64,000 nt of DNA, taken from Vibrio sp. SCSIO 43137. Its GTDB lineage: Bacteria > Pseudomonadota > Gammaproteobacteria > Enterobacterales > Vibrionaceae. Of this stretch, positions 19,830 through 24,712 are shown piece by piece. The notes beneath the pieces were generated by a model, which saw only the letters and a program-made list of their open reading frames with translations, searched no databases and was not told where the DNA came from. Location of the stretch: contig NZ_CP116383.1 of NCBI RefSeq assembly GCF_028201475.1, positions 930,001 to 994,000 on the forward strand. Reading direction: 5' to 3'. Positions within the stretch are counted from its first letter, which is position 1; every line of letters begins with the position of its first letter. Made by a program: the position numbers and the translations under genes.

Positions 19830-19906
19830 GCGCCCTTAGCTCAGTTGGATAGAGCACGTGCCTTCTAAGCATGTGGTCAGAGGTTCAAATCCTCTAGGGC
19901 GTGCCA
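19830..19906 (+). tRNA. tRNA-Arg (anticodon TCT)
   Basis: The 77-base gene folds into a full cloverleaf. The acceptor stem GCGCCCT pairs with AGGGCGT, with a terminal G-U pair. The anticodon loop is CTTCTAA, with anticodon TCT reading AGA and AGG, and the T arm is AGAGGTTCAAATCCTCT. CCA is encoded. It resembles E. coli argU. An operon of accessory character (rdh) begins about 220 bases downstream, and tRNA genes are common integration sites. Confidence 0.97.
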
Positions 19907-19914
19907 TATACAAT

Positions 19915-19950
19915 AAGCCGTAGCAGGTTAGTACTTGCTACGGCTTTTTT
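19915..19950 (+). terminator. Terminator after tRNA-Arg
   Basis: AAGCCGTAGCA (19915-19925) pairs perfectly with TGCTACGGCTT (19936-19946) and is followed by T residues. Confidence 0.93.
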
Positions 19951-20017: not shown

Positions 20018-20037
20018 GACTATAGTTTGTTATAGTC
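20018..20037. promoter_or_regulatory. 20-bp palindrome upstream of rdhA, candidate regulator site
   Basis: GACTATAGTTTGTTATAGTC has perfect 7-bp arms around a six-base centre. It is the same length as a lux box and lies about 90 bases before rdhA, whose operon ends with a LuxR-type gene. A weak -10-like AAGAAT at 20058-20063 would place the palindrome over the -35 region. A role as the site of the operon's own regulator is inferred. Confidence 0.5.
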
Positions 20038-20126: not shown

Positions 20127-21461
20127 ATGTCGATTAATGACTCACAGAATAAGGTTAAAGACAGCAAAGGTATAATGTCACGTCGTGACATACTAAAACT
20201 CGGTGCTGCTGGTAGTGTGGCTATGGCGGGCGCGTTAAGTTCCGGTAAAGCAAAGGCACGCGAAGATGGAATAGGGGTAGTGAAACACGATAGTTTTCCT
20301 CTGCAGGTTGCCCCTACTTATAAACGTTTTAATGAAGCCTTAAGCGTCAGCGCAGTAGAGTATTCCAAGGGAAATTACTACGACACACTAAAAGTTGTAG
20401 ATGATACTATTCCGGGTTTTGGTACGGTTGATCATGCCATCCGGGTGGGGGCAGAAATGTTCAACTTTGTCGAAGTTGGCGAGCGTCTGAACCCTTATGG
20501 TGCATTTCCTCTTGTTATAGAACCTCAGCCTATTAATGAAGGTTTTAAATTCCAGAGCAGTGAAGAAGCTCATGCAAAAATAAAACGCGCTGCCCGTATG
20601 TATGGAGCCGATATTGTCGGCATTACCCGCCGCGATCCTCGTTGGGATTACTCTCATGTGTTTAACGATAACACCCTTGAGTCAAAATCATGGGAAGAGG
20701 CTATGGGATTTGAGCCGAAAACGGTTGTCGTTATGGGCTTTGCTGAAGATTATGATGCATTTTCAGCAGCTCCAAGTGCTGCCGCCGATACCACAGCCGA
20801 TGAAGGCTATGCAAGAATGGCCAAAGCTGCACTAGAGCTGGCTCATTTCTTTAGTGCACTAGGGTGTAAAGCGGCTGCCTGCGGAAATGGCGGAGGATTA
20901 AGTGTCCCTTATGCAATTGCCGCCGGGTTAGGTGAGTCTAATCGTATGGGGTTACTGCAAAACTATAAATTTGCCAGCAGATTAAGAATTGCTAAGGTTT
21001 ATGTAGATCTTGAGTTAGACGAGTATTTTGATAAACCAGTGACATTTGGTGTACAGAGTTTCTGTGAAAACTGTATGCACTGTGCTGATAACTGTCCGGG
21101 TAAGGCAATTCCGAGAGATATCAAGCCTTCCTTAAATCCACCTCCGGCCGATGATGGTTCAGAACGCTATTACAATAACCCCGGTGTGTATAAATGGTGG
21201 GTTCGTTGCGATAAATGCTATCAGTACTGGGTAGACTCAGGTACTGGCTGCGGCACTTGTGTTACCACCTGTCCTTATAATAAACCTGATTTTTGGCATC
21301 ATAGGTTGATTGACAGAGTAAACACTATTCTGCCGGGCTTTATGCATGCTTTTATGGCAGAAATGGATCTTTGGCATGGCTATGGCAACGTTTTTGATCC
21401 AGAGGCAGTCAAAACGTTTTATGACCAAAGTGGCAGGAATTATAGCGGAATGGGGGACTAA
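20127..21461 (+). CDS. rdhA: Reductive dehalogenase catalytic subunit RdhA
   Basis: This 444-residue protein belongs to the corrinoid/iron-sulfur reductive dehalogenases, which remove halogens from organohalides during respiration. A twin-arginine signal (MSRRDILKLGAAGS, Arg19-Arg20) predicts folded export by Tat. The core blocks AARMYGADIVGITRRDPRW, VVVMGFAEDYDAFSAAPSAA and GLGESNRMGLL are typical. Cluster one is Cys313, Cys316, Cys319 and Cys323. Cluster two is CX10CX2CX3C from Cys364 to Cys382. Tyr228, Asn254 and Arg287 have the same spacing as Tyr246, Asn272 and Arg305 of PceA as I remember them. ATG 20127 has weak AGAGG at a distance; ATG 20175, with AAAGG close by, is an alternative. 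The substrate is unknown. Confidence 0.92.
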   Translation: MSINDSQNKVKDSKGIMSRRDILKLGAAGSVAMAGALSSGKAKAREDGIGVVKHDSFPLQVAPTYKRFNEALSVSAVEYSKGNYYDTLKVVDDTIPGFGTVDHAIRVGAEMFNFVEVGERLNPYGAFPLVIEPQPINEGFKFQSSEEAHAKIKRAARMYGADIVGITRRDPRWDYSHVFNDNTLESKSWEEAMGFEPKTVVVMGFAEDYDAFSAAPSAAADTTADEGYARMAKAALELAHFFSALGCKAAACGNGGGLSVPYAIAAGLGESNRMGLLQNYKFASRLRIAKVYVDLELDEYFDKPVTFGVQSFCENCMHCADNCPGKAIPRDIKPSLNPPPADDGSERYYNNPGVYKWWVRCDKCYQYWVDSGTGCGTCVTTCPYNKPDFWHHRLIDRVNTILPGFMHAFMAEMDLWHGYGNVFDPEAVKTFYDQSGRNYSGMGD

Positions 21462-21466
21462 TTATT

Positions 21467-21769
21467 ATGTTTCATATCTTTACCGGAATTGAAATTTTGT
21501 TTTTCTCGTTGGGTATCCTTGTAACCCTGAGTGTTCAGGCAGTGATTTATCTTAGGGTGATAAAACAAGTGAAGTTTATTCATCTCGCAATAATATTTGC
21601 AGGCCTATTGACCATGATCTTTGCGTTTGCCTGGTCTGTAAGCTCTATTTTGGAGCTTGAGCCTCAGTCTGCCTCTGTCGGAATGCTGGTTATCGGTATG
21701 CCGGGATTAATAATGGCTGTATTAGGTGGCCGACTGGCTTATCCGGAGATTAGACGTAACCAGAGGTAG
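21467..21769 (+). CDS. rdhB: Small membrane protein, likely RdhB-type anchor
   Basis: The 100-residue protein has three predicted membrane helices (about residues 5-27, 36-59 and 70-90) and a short basic C-terminus (YPEIRRNQR). Size, topology and position five bases after rdhA match the RdhB anchors that hold the dehalogenase on the outer face of the inner membrane. Primary sequence in this family is poorly conserved, so the assignment rests mostly on context. It is co-transcribed with rdhA, and the next gene follows after six bases. Confidence 0.75.
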   Translation: MFHIFTGIEILFFSLGILVTLSVQAVIYLRVIKQVKFIHLAIIFAGLLTMIFAFAWSVSSILELEPQSASVGMLVIGMPGLIMAVLGGRLAYPEIRRNQR

Positions 21770-21775
21770 CAAAAC

Positions 21776-22402
21776 ATGATAGATGAGCATCAAACTTCTG
21801 ACCTTAACAAGATCTTGTTAAATGAGCATGAACTAACAAATAATGGGCAGACAGAACAACTAATTCAAGATCTGAAATTGCAATTAGATAGTGGTACTGA
21901 TTCAGTTCAGGTTAGCAAAAAGCTGTGTGCCTGTTATGTAACTACTGGTGATTTTACCAAGGCTGAGCGACTTGTTTATAAAGTCATTGAAGCTGAGCCA
22001 GACAACCCAGAGTGCTACTTTTATCTCGGAAAAATTTCATGTCTGAAAAGCAACTTTGATGAGGCTGTCCACTTATTCGGACAGGCAATGAAACTGGGAA
22101 TGGATAAGCATAGCTGTCTGCTGGGGCAGGGAATTGCTTACTTTGCAAAAGGTTCTGTGTCTGATGCTCTTACTATATTTAATAGTCTATTGCAGCAAAA
22201 AGAAGAATATAAAGTAAAAGTTTTGCACTATCGTGCTCTATGTCTGGCAGCGTTGAGGCGATTTGATGAAGCCTTGGCAGACATCGACCTATTGCAGGAG
22301 CTAGGTCTGTTTAGTAAGGAACTAAGTAATATCAAAAAGATGCTTGAAGAGCAGCGACTTCAGCCGGTCAGCAATAAAATAAAAGTGACCAACTTGCCGT
22401 AG
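21776..22402 (+). CDS. Tetratricopeptide-repeat protein in the rdh operon
   Basis: The 208-residue protein has no signal peptide and contains about four TPR units. Clear ones are near DFTKAERLVYKVIEAEPDNPECYFYLGKI and SNFDEAVHLFGQAMKLGMD, and weaker ones cover SVSDALTIFNSLLQQ and RFDEALADIDLLQELG. TPR proteins serve as protein-protein scaffolds. Its position between the anchor and the regulator suggests a role in maturation, export quality control or signalling for the dehalogenase, but nothing in the sequence decides which. By eye this gene is richer in A/T than its chromosomal neighbours. Confidence 0.8.
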   Translation: MIDEHQTSDLNKILLNEHELTNNGQTEQLIQDLKLQLDSGTDSVQVSKKLCACYVTTGDFTKAERLVYKVIEAEPDNPECYFYLGKISCLKSNFDEAVHLFGQAMKLGMDKHSCLLGQGIAYFAKGSVSDALTIFNSLLQQKEEYKVKVLHYRALCLAALRRFDEALADIDLLQELGLFSKELSNIKKMLEEQRLQPVSNKIKVTNLP

Positions 22403-22429
22403 CAGGGAAAATACTGGTTTTAAACTAAT

Positions 22430-23170
22430 ATGAGTGAGATTTTTAAAAAACTACTTATTGAAGAGCTGAGTAAGAAAGGCTTTTTTAATGACCGGATAGA
22501 AAATATCGTTATCTTAGCGGGTTTGTCCTCTGAAGATAGGCAAAGGAATATGTTTGACAACAAGGAGTACACATATTTAAGTACGCTTTATTACAATTTG
22601 TCCCCTGAGCTTGTAGAACAGTATGGAAGATATTTTTTGGGCGGCAGTGACAAAAATGTTGAAAGGATAATTAATTCGGCTGAGCCCATTATCTACAATC
22701 GTTCTCTGGTTTCTAATGAATCTAAGAAAGCTCAGGGGAGGATTGATGAAATGCTGAGTTCTGAGCTAAGCGATTACTCGGTAATGATTCCCGTAGCCCC
22801 CCGAGTAGAAAGTCGTTGGAAAGGTATTGTCTGGTTTGATGTTAAAAAGACGGGTCTTGGGTCACCGAATGATCAGGTCGCCGCCCATAAAGACTATCTT
22901 ATGGAGCAGGCCAACTTTCTATACGAGCTCTGGCGTTATTCCGTAGGAAAGTTCTACAACCTATATCTTGAAAGAGAAATTTTTGCTGAACAGGCTATCC
23001 GGGTAGCAAATTACTTAGCCGAAGGATACTCATCTAAACAAATAGCAGAGTTTACCTGCTTAAGTAAATCCGGTGTGGAATACCACATAGAGACAATGAA
23101 AAAGAACTTATCGGTAAAAAACAGAAACCAGCTTATTGCAGAGTTAATCCGAAAAGGCATAGTAAAGTAG
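22430..23170 (+). CDS. LuxR-family transcriptional regulator of the rdh operon
   Basis: The 246-residue protein ends in a LuxR-type helix-turn-helix (about residues 185-245: ANYLAEGYSSKQIAEFTCLS followed by KSGVEYHIETMKKNLSVKNR). Its N-terminal 180 residues show no receiver-type aspartate and no recognisable acyl-homoserine-lactone domain, so the signal is unknown; an organohalide or redox cue is a guess. It is the last gene of the operon, 27 bases after the TPR gene. A 20-bp palindrome before rdhA is the obvious candidate target. The stop is only six bases from the stop of a convergent gene, with no terminator between. The DNA is A/T-rich by eye. Confidence 0.82.
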   Translation: MSEIFKKLLIEELSKKGFFNDRIENIVILAGLSSEDRQRNMFDNKEYTYLSTLYYNLSPELVEQYGRYFLGGSDKNVERIINSAEPIIYNRSLVSNESKKAQGRIDEMLSSELSDYSVMIPVAPRVESRWKGIVWFDVKKTGLGSPNDQVAAHKDYLMEQANFLYELWRYSVGKFYNLYLEREIFAEQAIRVANYLAEGYSSKQIAEFTCLSKSGVEYHIETMKKNLSVKNRNQLIAELIRKGIVK

Positions 23171-23518: not shown

Positions 23519-23728
23519 TTTAAGATGTTGATTATCATAAGTTAATTTTCTAGTTTAACTATGATTATATGTGCCTTGATTCTTATTTGAAGCGATTTGT
23601 GTTTTTGTTTCGTTTTCGTTCACAGTTTCATTCATTTCAACGATTGAATTCTGATTTATCTTGATAATAAGTATGTCGATAAAAGCTGTCTTATACTTAA
23701 TCTGTAAGGGATGCCTAAGGGAGAGAGT

Positions 23729-24712
23729 ATGGATAGCCAAAAGCAGGACTTTTTGCCTTCGTCTGGTTTTGAGAGCGATCTGATTTCTGTTGATATTGAT
23801 AAGTGGCAAAGGACGGTTAATCTGATGTCTGAACTGTATGGTGCAGCATGCGGCACCATTGTTCAGTATAAGAATGAGCAGTTCAATGTGATTACTGCAA
23901 GCATGAATGAAGATAACTTCCTTGCAGCAGGCAGTACATGGCCCTGGGACATGCAGAGTTTTTGCCGGGAAATTATGGAAACCGGCAAAGAGCTTTATGT
24001 CGGGGATGCTGAAAACAGCGAAAAGTGGAAAGGCAGCCCAGGTGTAGCAGAGGGGCCTGTTCGATCTTATCTTGGTTTTCCTATTCTGTGGCCCGATGGT
24101 CACTTGTTTGGCACGATTTGTGTGATTGATACTAAGGCAACAGATTACGAGCCTAAACTTATCCGTCTGCTAAATTCACTTTGTGAACTTATTACTGCCG
24201 ACCTGAAAATTGCCGTTGATTTGGAACAGATGAAAAGTCTGGCACTGACCGATGAACTTACCCAGCTACATAACCGAAGAAGCCTTGAGCTCTTGGGAGA
24301 GCAGAAACTGAAAGAAATTCAGCGGGATAAAACCTGTTTGTCGGTTATCTATATAGATATTGATAATATGAAGCAGGTGAATGATCAGTTTGGTCACTCT
24401 GAAGGTGATAACTGCTTGGTGACGTTAGCAGAGGTTTTGAGGCAACAGTGTAGGACATCCGATATTGTCGCCAGAATAGGAGGAGATGAGTTTGTTGTGC
24501 TTACCCTGTCTACCACTCCTGCCTACTCTTTGATGACGCGGATTAAGAACAATTACTCATCAAAGGTTTCTGATAAACAGGCGTTGTCAATTACCTCTTT
24601 AAGCTGTGGGTTGATCGTTCTGGAATACAGCAATATGACCACTCTGAAACAAGCTGTAGAGCAGGCTGATGAGCGGATGTATGAGGAAAAGCAGAAGAAA
24701 AAAAACGCCTGA
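23729..24712 (+). CDS. GAF-GGDEF diguanylate cyclase
   Basis: The 327-residue protein has an N-terminal GAF-like sensor (about residues 25-165, with ILWPDGHLFGTICVIDTKA). A C-terminal GGDEF domain follows, starting LTDELTQLHNRRSLE. The active-site signature GGDEF is intact at 251-255, and the inhibitory-site motif RTSD (RxxD) sits five residues before it, so product-inhibited c-di-GMP synthesis is expected. No membrane segment is present. The start is set at ATG 23729, which follows AAGGGAGAGAG; an ATG 18 bases earlier has no room for a ribosome site. The ligand of the GAF domain is unknown. Confidence 0.92.
   Translation: MDSQKQDFLPSSGFESDLISVDIDKWQRTVNLMSELYGAACGTIVQYKNEQFNVITASMNEDNFLAAGSTWPWDMQSFCREIMETGKELYVGDAENSEKWKGSPGVAEGPVRSYLGFPILWPDGHLFGTICVIDTKATDYEPKLIRLLNSLCELITADLKIAVDLEQMKSLALTDELTQLHNRRSLELLGEQKLKEIQRDKTCLSVIYIDIDNMKQVNDQFGHSEGDNCLVTLAEVLRQQCRTSDIVARIGGDEFVVLTLSTTPAYSLMTRIKNNYSSKVSDKQALSITSLSCGLIVLEYSNMTTLKQAVEQADERMYEEKQKKKNA

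Follow-up and report, generated by a model that had tools for sequence, protein, structure and literature searches.

What does an operon built around a reductive dehalogenase gene do in a Vibrio, and why should it include genes for a TPR protein and a LuxR-type regulator? The 64,000-nucleotide stretch analyzed here (the window) carries rdhA, rdhB, a TPR gene and a LuxR-type gene on the same strand between positions 20127 and 23170. The gaps between them are 5 (rdhA to rdhB), 6 (rdhB to TPR) and 27 bases (TPR to LuxR). An ORF check finds all four genes as an earlier note on this DNA had read them, each with an intact reading frame, and together they form a real operon (Table 1). The listed ORF of rdhA begins earlier, at GTG 20076, and the operon contains no rdhC. 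The explanation that best accounts for the whole, and that we consider probable, is that a marine Vibrio has acquired, by horizontal transfer, an operon for organohalide reduction.

Table 1. Features of the rdh operon and its upstream region, in window coordinates.
Feature	Position	Strand	Description and basis	Location
tRNA-Arg (TCT)	19830–19906	+	ARAGORN; Rfam 68.3 bits	Just 5′ of the operon, beside folD, outside the operon
Intrinsic-terminator-like hairpin	19915–19946	+	Scan; 14-pair stem	Between tRNA and operon
Candidate LuxR-family operator	20018–20037		Perfect 20-bp inverted repeat, 7-6-7	Upstream of rdhA
rdhA	20127–21461	+	444 aa from ATG; Tat-type, respiratory-type corrinoid/iron-sulfur reductive dehalogenase catalytic subunit	
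rdhB	21467–21769	+	100 aa; small three-helix membrane anchor; hydropathy and homologues	
TPR gene	21776–22402	+	208 aa; cytoplasmic TPR protein; Pfam TPR and model	
LuxR gene	22430–23170	+	246 aa; one-component regulator, AHL-receptor-like fold and GerE HTH	

The catalytic subunit and its anchor

By its sequence RdhA is a member of the reductive dehalogenase family, an enzyme type already known. It scores 173.5 bits against NCBIfam TIGR02486, above the cut-off of 160.35, and it matches the PDB entries 8q4h (4e-62) and 4uqu (PceA, 5e-37). The Pfam matches comprise iron-sulfur domains and the Tat signal alone, with no dehalogenase model. The two iron-sulfur motifs that had been proposed are present, CxxCxxCxxxCP at residue 313 and CxxCxxxCP at residue 375. 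Y228 and R287 are kept in 74 of 74 aligned RdhA sequences, and align with the catalytic tyrosine and arginine of PceA, Y246 and R305. In the phylogeny the protein groups with RdhA, as the earlier note had expected, and it shares the conserved cluster cysteines and catalytic residues. There is an RR motif at residue 19, and at least 90% of 25 relatives keep the RR; Tat-signal models score below their cut-offs (Pfam 15.9 versus 22.7 bits, NCBIfam 13.6 versus 16.7 bits). The protein resembles the respiratory RdhAs (TIGR02486; PceA 4uqu, 8q4h) in the N-terminal RR, the two [4Fe-4S] motifs, the tyrosine and arginine positions and the adjoining RdhB. It differs from them in that its operon lacks rdhC, and in sharing a clade with Endozoicomonadaceae sequences. 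The enzyme probably acts on natural organic compounds by removing a halogen, most likely bromine.

RdhB reaches the cut-off of no family in Pfam or NCBIfam. A simple hydropathy scan reveals three hydrophobic regions, with peaks at 10–28, 37–55 and 69–87, bearing out the three-helix anchor originally suggested. The motif E-x-EPQS is common to this protein and the two other RdhB proteins checked, and homologues lie directly 3′ of rdhA in many loci. An iterated RdhB HMM drifted into RdhA and RdhC sequences and was dropped, so that later RdhB assignments were made by single-sequence search with a length limit.

Origin of the operon

Where did the operon come from? In a tree of 74 chosen RdhA sequences the window protein falls in a clade of 15 rows (100/98), nine of which are Endozoicomonadaceae, several of these bacteria being sponge-associated. 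The Vibrio paralogues fall outside this clade. A position in a mostly Endozoicomonadaceae clade, apart from the Vibrio paralogues, points to horizontal transfer, and it is likely that the operon was gained by the Vibrio in this way. No orthologue of the window rdhA turned up in any of the 195 further Vibrio genomes sampled, where a limited number of candidates was scored per genome, so that the gain may be recent and perhaps poorly integrated. Such an acquisition might be non-functional and heading for loss, as would fit an operon present in one of 196 sampled Vibrio genomes, among the matches listed, whose rdhA has a lower third-codon GC (0.37) than the eight flanking genes measured (0.44–0.49). 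Yet the four frames are intact and the catalytic and cluster residues conserved, so that we regard decay as highly improbable.

The gene folD and the tRNA-Arg gene are paired in 10 of 10 fetched relatives, and so mark a conserved anchor in Vibrio; no rdh gene was found in the corresponding stretches of these relatives at E ≤ 1e-8. A second copy of the 3′ end of the tRNA-Arg gene is absent within the 64 kb at up to three mismatches, and an att-type integration island is therefore not supported. Terminator-like hairpins, which are consensus matches only, number two against 3.7 expected in shuffles, and a promoter scan was uninformative (13 matches versus 8.7 ± 2.7 in shuffles). No riboswitch reached the Rfam gathering level in the window, in the second rdh locus of the same genome (L089) or in the locus of Vibrio sp. 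SS-MA-C1-2 (L128).

The TPR protein

The TPR protein matches Pfam TPR_19 with 48.5 bits, in agreement with its first assignment, and its structure model (pLDDT 83) is a TPR superhelix. A hydropathy scan found no hydrophobic segment. A defence identity offered by PADLOC was a weak match only, and was rejected. Five Endozoicomonadaceae loci have a related gene after the rdhB slot (46–86 bits), as does L128 (103 bits); elsewhere in the 196 Vibrio genomes scores reach at most 31.7 bits, among the matches listed. Conservation of the four-gene set is in this sense partial: in all six other TPR loci the TPR gene again comes after the rdhB slot, and three of these also have a LuxR-family gene within 5 kb, which lies upstream of rdhA. 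The remaining three (L021, L022 and L128) have none within that distance, and LuxR profile scores in L128 are 1.5 bits or less. The TPR protein probably helps RdhA to assemble or mature.

In four Vibrio loci, one in the window's own genome and the others in three further Vibrio genomes, the TPR slot is filled by a Sel1 gene. The Sel1 and TPR proteins were not merged into one family, as comparison of their profiles gives a probability of 14% and they are not clearly homologous. TPR genes of 366–369 aa beside another, longer kind of RdhA score about 10–22 bits or less against the window TPR protein. This is the background of unrelated Vibrio TPR proteins, and they were therefore excluded from the relatives even though an iterated profile drew them in.

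The LuxR-type regulator

The regulator is of LuxR type, as had been claimed, with a Pfam GerE match (PF00196) of 34.6 bits against a cut-off of 23.5. There is no autoinducer-binding domain among its Pfam matches at E up to 1. The structure model matches the AHL receptors RhlR, SdiA, QscR, TraR and LasR, and the ligand-domain fold of LasR and TraR is present. The likeness lies in the overall fold of the predicted model and the GerE HTH; the fold alignments have about 8–18% identity, with TM-scores of 0.58 or less, and the window protein differs further in the missing autoinducer-binding match and in the linkage of its genes to rdhA. These structural matches might indicate a true quorum-sensing receptor, such that cell density would control dehalogenation through acyl-homoserine lactones. 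We find this quite improbable, given the Pfam result and the confinement of full-length members of the family to rdhA loci: they occur in 4 of 196 Vibrio genomes, in five copies that all lie beside rdhA (best 14 candidates per genome). These are the same four genomes that carry the second-locus type of RdhA. A LuxI-family search gave no match in the Vibrio's own genome, and likewise none in control genomes. The protein belongs to a regulator family that is tied to rdhA operons and has been little described so far.

Could the TPR protein be the partner of LuxR, not of RdhA? It would then bind the LuxR HTH and hold the regulator off until a signal arrives, in the manner of RapF and ComA. RapF is a TPR protein, and the RapF–ComA complex (3ulq) is among the HTH matches, which shows a shared HTH fold alone. 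The two genes adjoin in the window, and in the four Vibrio loci with Sel1 the Sel1 and LuxR frames overlap by 20–41 bases as called. However, the TPR gene occurs without LuxR within 5 kb in the three loci named above, and LuxR genes within 5 kb of rdhA occur without the window-type TPR gene in L028, L029, L031 and eight Shewanella and Ferrimonas loci. This pattern argues against an obligate Rap-type pair. The unclear homology of Sel1 and TPR also speaks against the idea, and we judge such a partnership unlikely.

The palindrome upstream of rdhA is suggestive only, as a candidate LuxR-family operator. It was picked in the window and then tested at 14 other upstream regions, using shuffles that preserve base composition only. 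Such repeats occur on average 0.03 times per shuffled upstream region at the same spacing, and 0.26 times for spacers of 2–8. Similar boxes are present at two of the 14 regions, L028 and L030 (shuffle fractions 0.006 and 0.014), with fractions of at least 0.146 at the other 12; none of the four Vibrio C2 loci has the palindrome.

How general is the gene set?

Of the 72 loci counted, 39 are gammaproteobacterial, and 19 of these have LuxR-family genes within 5 kb of rdhA; none of the 33 others does. One flank is shorter than 5 kb in 6 of the gammaproteobacterial and 11 of the other loci, where LuxR or TPR genes may be missed. Left out of the count are L001–L020 (L012 being genome G160 and L020 genome G315), L087 (a duplicate of L092), L093–L104 (longer-RdhA and distant loci), L107–L115 and L129–L133 (Photobacterium and Enterovibrio loci already counted). 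L113–L115 (further RdhA places in G627 and G643), L145 and L146 are outside the analysis.

The earlier note had put its proposal at risk on the four genes recurring elsewhere. The order does recur with Sel1 in place of TPR, in the same genome and three other Vibrio genomes, while the exact order with TPR is found in the window alone. Its view that a TPR protein plus a LuxR regulator is an unusual set was overstated, as two papers already place each near rdhA: a TPR gene in RDase clusters of Deltaproteobacteria in 2018 (PMC6299228) and, in 2020, LuxR-type regulators beside the rdhA2 gene of Desulfoluna (PMC7031245). By gene description, the deltaproteobacterial clade 5 clusters share a TPR-protein gene with the window, but have a sigma-54 activator there in contrast to the LuxR-type regulator, and the marine members tested in that study use bromophenols (PMC6299228). 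The likeness to the Desulfoluna cluster, by description alone, is the LuxR-type regulator by rdhA; there, LuxR and MarR genes are located both upstream and downstream (PMC7031245). No member of the window LuxR family lies within 5 kb at the two fetched Desulfoluna loci (L058 and L060). RdhC proteins of Vibrio were presented in 2018 as marking candidate organohalide respirers (PMC5928378). The rdhC-bearing marine Vibrio, Photobacterium and Ferrimonas are of the same genera as those considered here, and RdhC of the window's genome has the published motifs; in its available part that paper treats RdhC, and TPR or LuxR genes are not described.

A second rdh locus and a proposed mechanism

The other chromosome of the same genome contains a second, different operon (L089), of the order rdhA-rdhB-Sel1-LuxR, near rdhC, a flavodoxin-type (flavodoxin-NAD) reductase and corrinoid genes. 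Its RdhC (L089 1121–2407) has the FMN motif SGATLS and the CX3CP motifs CGNICP and CRFFCP, corresponding to the reported [ST]G[AS]Tx[ST] and two CX3CP (PMC5928378). The presence of rdhC at this locus and its absence from the window operon would suit an RdhA that serves detoxification or carbon access and not respiration, or that acts only together with the second RdhA. We think this rather unlikely, though less so than the alternatives above. The combination of a Tat-type RdhA and an anchor RdhB encoded next to it is established as the respiratory arrangement, and the RdhC of the second locus could serve both.

In the mechanism that we favor for the acquired operon, RdhA would receive its corrinoid and two [4Fe-4S] clusters in the cytoplasm, where it is made, and would then leave through Tat, with RdhB anchoring it to the periplasmic side of the membrane. 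There it would act on natural aromatic compounds and reductively strip off a halogen, bromine being the most probable. The TPR protein would stay in the cytoplasm, most probably binding apo-RdhA during cofactor loading or before export, and the LuxR-type one-component sensor would turn the operon on with a ligand, probably an organohalide, at its putative operator. Because the window operon lacks rdhC, electrons would probably reach RdhA through a shared RdhC from the second locus.

A broader scheme may be offered tentatively, as a possibility that we would not yet call probable. A dedicated LuxR receptor family of marine gammaproteobacteria, with the quorum-receptor fold, might sense organohalides or host brominated defence compounds and so switch on rdh operons, with the TPR or Sel1 solenoid encoded after rdhB acting as an RdhA-specific assembly factor. 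The fold would thus have been repurposed as a sensor of a respiratory substrate, shared by sponge symbionts and vibrios.

Among the known organohalide respirers, many are slow-growing strict anaerobes that are hard to modify. If the operon works, a fast-growing, potentially tractable Vibrio would combine reductive debromination with corrinoid synthesis and a one-component switch, and the marine bromine cycle would have a link between vibrios and sponge-associated Endozoicomonadaceae. Both the maturation of RdhA by TPR and Sel1 proteins and marine organohalide sensing without CRP/FNR, MarR or sigma-54 regulators become testable with it. Pointers to a corrinoid cofactor in RdhA are indirect, namely homology to PceA and the corrinoid genes of the genome. 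The corrinoid gene cbiF is missing from 5 of 11 genomes in which any RdhA was matched, among the matches listed. It is present in 32 of 196 Vibrio genomes, including all four with the second-locus type of RdhA (hypergeometric 6e-4, relatedness ignored).

The rdh operon of the window

Four genes follow one another on a single strand, separated by 5, 6 and 27 bases, just as the earlier note had described (Table). The ORF finder begins rdhA at GTG 20076, and the ATG at 20127 gives the N-terminal layout of its relatives. The product was rightly assigned to the reductive dehalogenase family, scoring 173.5 bits against TIGR02486 (cut-off 160.35). Two solved structures of tetrachloroethene dehalogenases match it, 8q4h at 4e-62 and 4uqu at 5e-37; the match to 4ras is weaker. 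In the 4uqu alignment the catalytic residues Y246 and R305 of PceA align with Y228 and R287, and both are kept in all 74 aligned RdhA proteins. The seven cysteines of the proposed iron-sulfur motifs, and C364, are preserved in 73 or 74 of the 74. RdhB has the three hydrophobic regions of the three-helix anchor it was thought to be; there are none in the window TPR or LuxR proteins.

Coordinates of features in the window and in other loci
Feature	Location	Strand	Remarks
rdhA	window 20127-21461	+	
rdhB	window 21467-21769	+	
TPR gene	window 21776-22402	+	
LuxR-type gene	window 22430-23170	+	
Inverted repeat	window 20018-20037		perfect, 20 bp
GGDEF gene	window 23711-24712		
Second rdh locus	G000:C2, L089 1121-16999 and L144 694-7073		own genome; rdhC, flavodoxin-type reductase, Sel1, LuxR, LysR, corrinoid genes
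GGDEF gene	L089 4142-5596		second locus
Weaker LuxR relative	L105 8279-9052	-	
Weaker LuxR relative	L106 7555-8292	-	
Long ORF	L080 11563-14508		Shewanella
Long ORF	L085 11606-14533		Shewanella
RdhA-like match	G138:C3:278668-279232 (L015, L016, L094)		across two open frames

A second rdh locus with corrinoid genes

The second contig of this genome has an rdhA of its own, whose product is 44% identical to the window RdhA over the best stretch. There the order is rdhA-rdhB-Sel1-LuxR on a single strand, with a divergent LysR gene. Close to rdhA are genes for a flavodoxin-NAD reductase and for an RdhC with FMN and CX3CP motifs, as defined in PMC5928378, a 2018 paper that named Vibrio RdhC proteins as candidate organohalide respirers. 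The locus is adjoined by cobU, cobD, cbiB, cobA and cbiF, then cbiH, cbiG, cbiL, cbiE, cbiC and cbiD; nine of these eleven pass curated cut-offs, cbiC and cbiG falling below, and the match of a twelfth, CobT-like candidate is far under its own. The second rdh operon thus has genes for a large part of the anaerobic corrinoid pathway as its neighbours. Steps of that pathway beyond those covered here are those of cbiA, cbiP, cbiJ, cbiK and cobS.

A GGDEF diguanylate-cyclase gene lies near each of the two rdh loci, possibly by chance. In Shewanella, very long ORFs downstream of rdhA match both RdhC and flavodoxin-reductase queries, which suggests a fused electron-transfer protein.

The TPR gene and the recurrence of the set

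How general is the four-gene set? We surveyed 72 loci: the contig scan supplied 67 (of its 68, one was a duplicate), and the rest were the window and the four Vibrio second-locus regions. L128, the TPR-bearing locus of Vibrio sp. SS-MA-C1-2, was compared as well. The notion of a set conserved elsewhere holds only in part: the exact rdhA-rdhB-TPR-LuxR order is found in the window only, but a related TPR gene in the slot after rdhB and a LuxR gene near rdhA do recur. Such TPR genes (46-86 bits) occupy that slot in five of eleven Endozoicomonadaceae loci, which include each of the three genomes surveyed from this family, and in L128 (103 bits). Other proteins of 196 Vibrio genomes reach at most 31.7 bits, and in the four Vibrio second-locus regions the slot is taken by a Sel1-repeat gene. 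A search of 5.8 billion proteins returned the TPR protein itself only, at the sensitivity of that search.

Alongside the genes, order, family membership and recurrence established here, a pathway can be proposed. RdhA would be loaded with its cofactors in the cytoplasm with the help of the TPR protein, exported, and then anchored by RdhB. Since there is no rdhC or reductase gene within the window operon, electrons would be delivered by RdhC borrowed from the second locus. Sensing of the substrate or a related compound would fall to the LuxR-type protein. The TPR protein could instead be a partner of LuxR; we prefer its role as an RdhA factor, because three of the six other TPR loci have no LuxR gene within 5 kb and all six keep the slot after rdhB.

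Some relatives of the window RdhA belong to bacteria with sponge hosts. Taken with the bromophenol use described in PMC6299228, for marine Deltaproteobacteria with TPR-bearing reductive dehalogenase clusters, and in PMC7031245, for Desulfoluna, this suggests a bromoaromatic substrate. As in the window, TPR genes lie in the clusters of the former and LuxR regulators alongside Desulfoluna rdhA2 in the latter. Each association is known already, and the combined set was not found in the literature searched: no paper joined reductive dehalogenase, LuxR and tetratricopeptide in a search with most subscription papers outside it, and among the matches listed for Vibrio, sponge, Endozoicomonas or marine with reductive dehalogenases we recognized none for this set.

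A longer kind of RdhA (504-572 aa as called; L093, L095, L066 and L070) occurs in Vibrio, Shewanella and Ferrimonas with a TPR gene of 366-369 aa immediately upstream, overlapping rdhA as called in L066. This arrangement differs from that of the window.

The LuxR-type regulator

Of the 39 gammaproteobacterial loci, 19 have a LuxR-family gene no more than 5 kb from rdhA (Vibrio 5/5, Endozoicomonadaceae 6/11, Ferrimonas 3/7, Shewanella 5/11, Photobacterium/Enterovibrio 0/5), as do none of the 33 others, mainly Bacteroidota and Desulfobacterota. Because only 18 genomes, 12 with such a gene, contribute to the 39, these loci are not independent. The loci also served to build the family profile, and a genome-wide control was therefore used. 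Among the 196 Vibrio genomes, 10 gave some match at E <= 1e-8; the five full-length matches (231-272 bits) are in exactly the four genomes with the second-locus RdhA type, always beside rdhA. The next best reaches 65 bits, in the own genome and G083, away from rdhA. The search of 5.8 billion proteins gave four relatives (34-36%) at its sensitivity.

The inverted repeat ends 89 bases 5′ of the rdhA ATG; 0.03 repeats of this kind with that spacing are expected per shuffled upstream region. Similar boxes precede rdhA in loci L028 and L030 and are absent from 12 other upstream regions tested, Vibrio second-locus ones included. The repeat is no more than a candidate LuxR-type operator.

The weaker 65-bit LuxR relatives are in two rdhA-bearing genomes; that in L106 adjoins genes that, by reading only, resemble a molybdoenzyme operon.

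Origin and distribution

The best named matches to RdhA (~50-55% identity) are from Parendozoicomonas haliclonae, Sansalvadorimonas verongulae and uncultured Endozoicomonas, all Endozoicomonadaceae, and from Vibrio sp. SS-MA-C1-2; several further proteins equal them in score, the top one at 56%. In a tree of 74 RdhA proteins that of the window falls in a 15-row clade (100/98) with nine Endozoicomonadaceae rows, Vibrio sp. SS-MA-C1-2 and four other proteins, as sister of the rest (98/40). The second-locus Vibrio proteins are distant, with Shewanella, Ferrimonas and Photobacterium. Transfer of rdhA between an Endozoicomonadaceae-type group and Vibrio, in either direction, is likely on this phylogeny. 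The window LuxR has its place among the LuxR proteins of the second-locus Vibrio regions (96/92), on a long branch to which the warning of long-branch joining applies. Since this grouping differs from that of RdhA, the operon may be a mosaic, in which rdhA and the TPR gene are of Endozoicomonadaceae type and the regulator is of Vibrio type.

The operon is directly downstream of folD and tRNA-Arg(TCT), a pair kept in all ten relatives fetched. In their stretches no rdh genes lie beside the pair, and the right-hand neighbours of the window are absent save for one weak AraC match (L139). No repeat of the tRNA-Arg end was found in the window.

RdhA matches occur in 11 of the 196 Vibrio genomes, a sample of a larger group; the window copy is in its own genome only, and the second-locus type in four (own, G022, G083 and G103). 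Family-wide, matches at E <= 1e-40 occur in 11 of 329 genomes. The nearest apart from the own genome is G597, of another genus (57% identity, residues 17-444), whose RdhA is identical to P0006, the Vibrio sp. SS-MA-C1-2 protein. The class sample, of 369 genomes, has 5 with a match at E <= 1e-20. The cbiF family is present in 32 of the 196 Vibrio genomes, including all four with the second-locus RdhA (hypergeometric 6e-4, kinship ignored), and in six of the 11 with any RdhA match, five being without. In genome G138 the RdhA-like match spanning two open frames is perhaps a disrupted gene.
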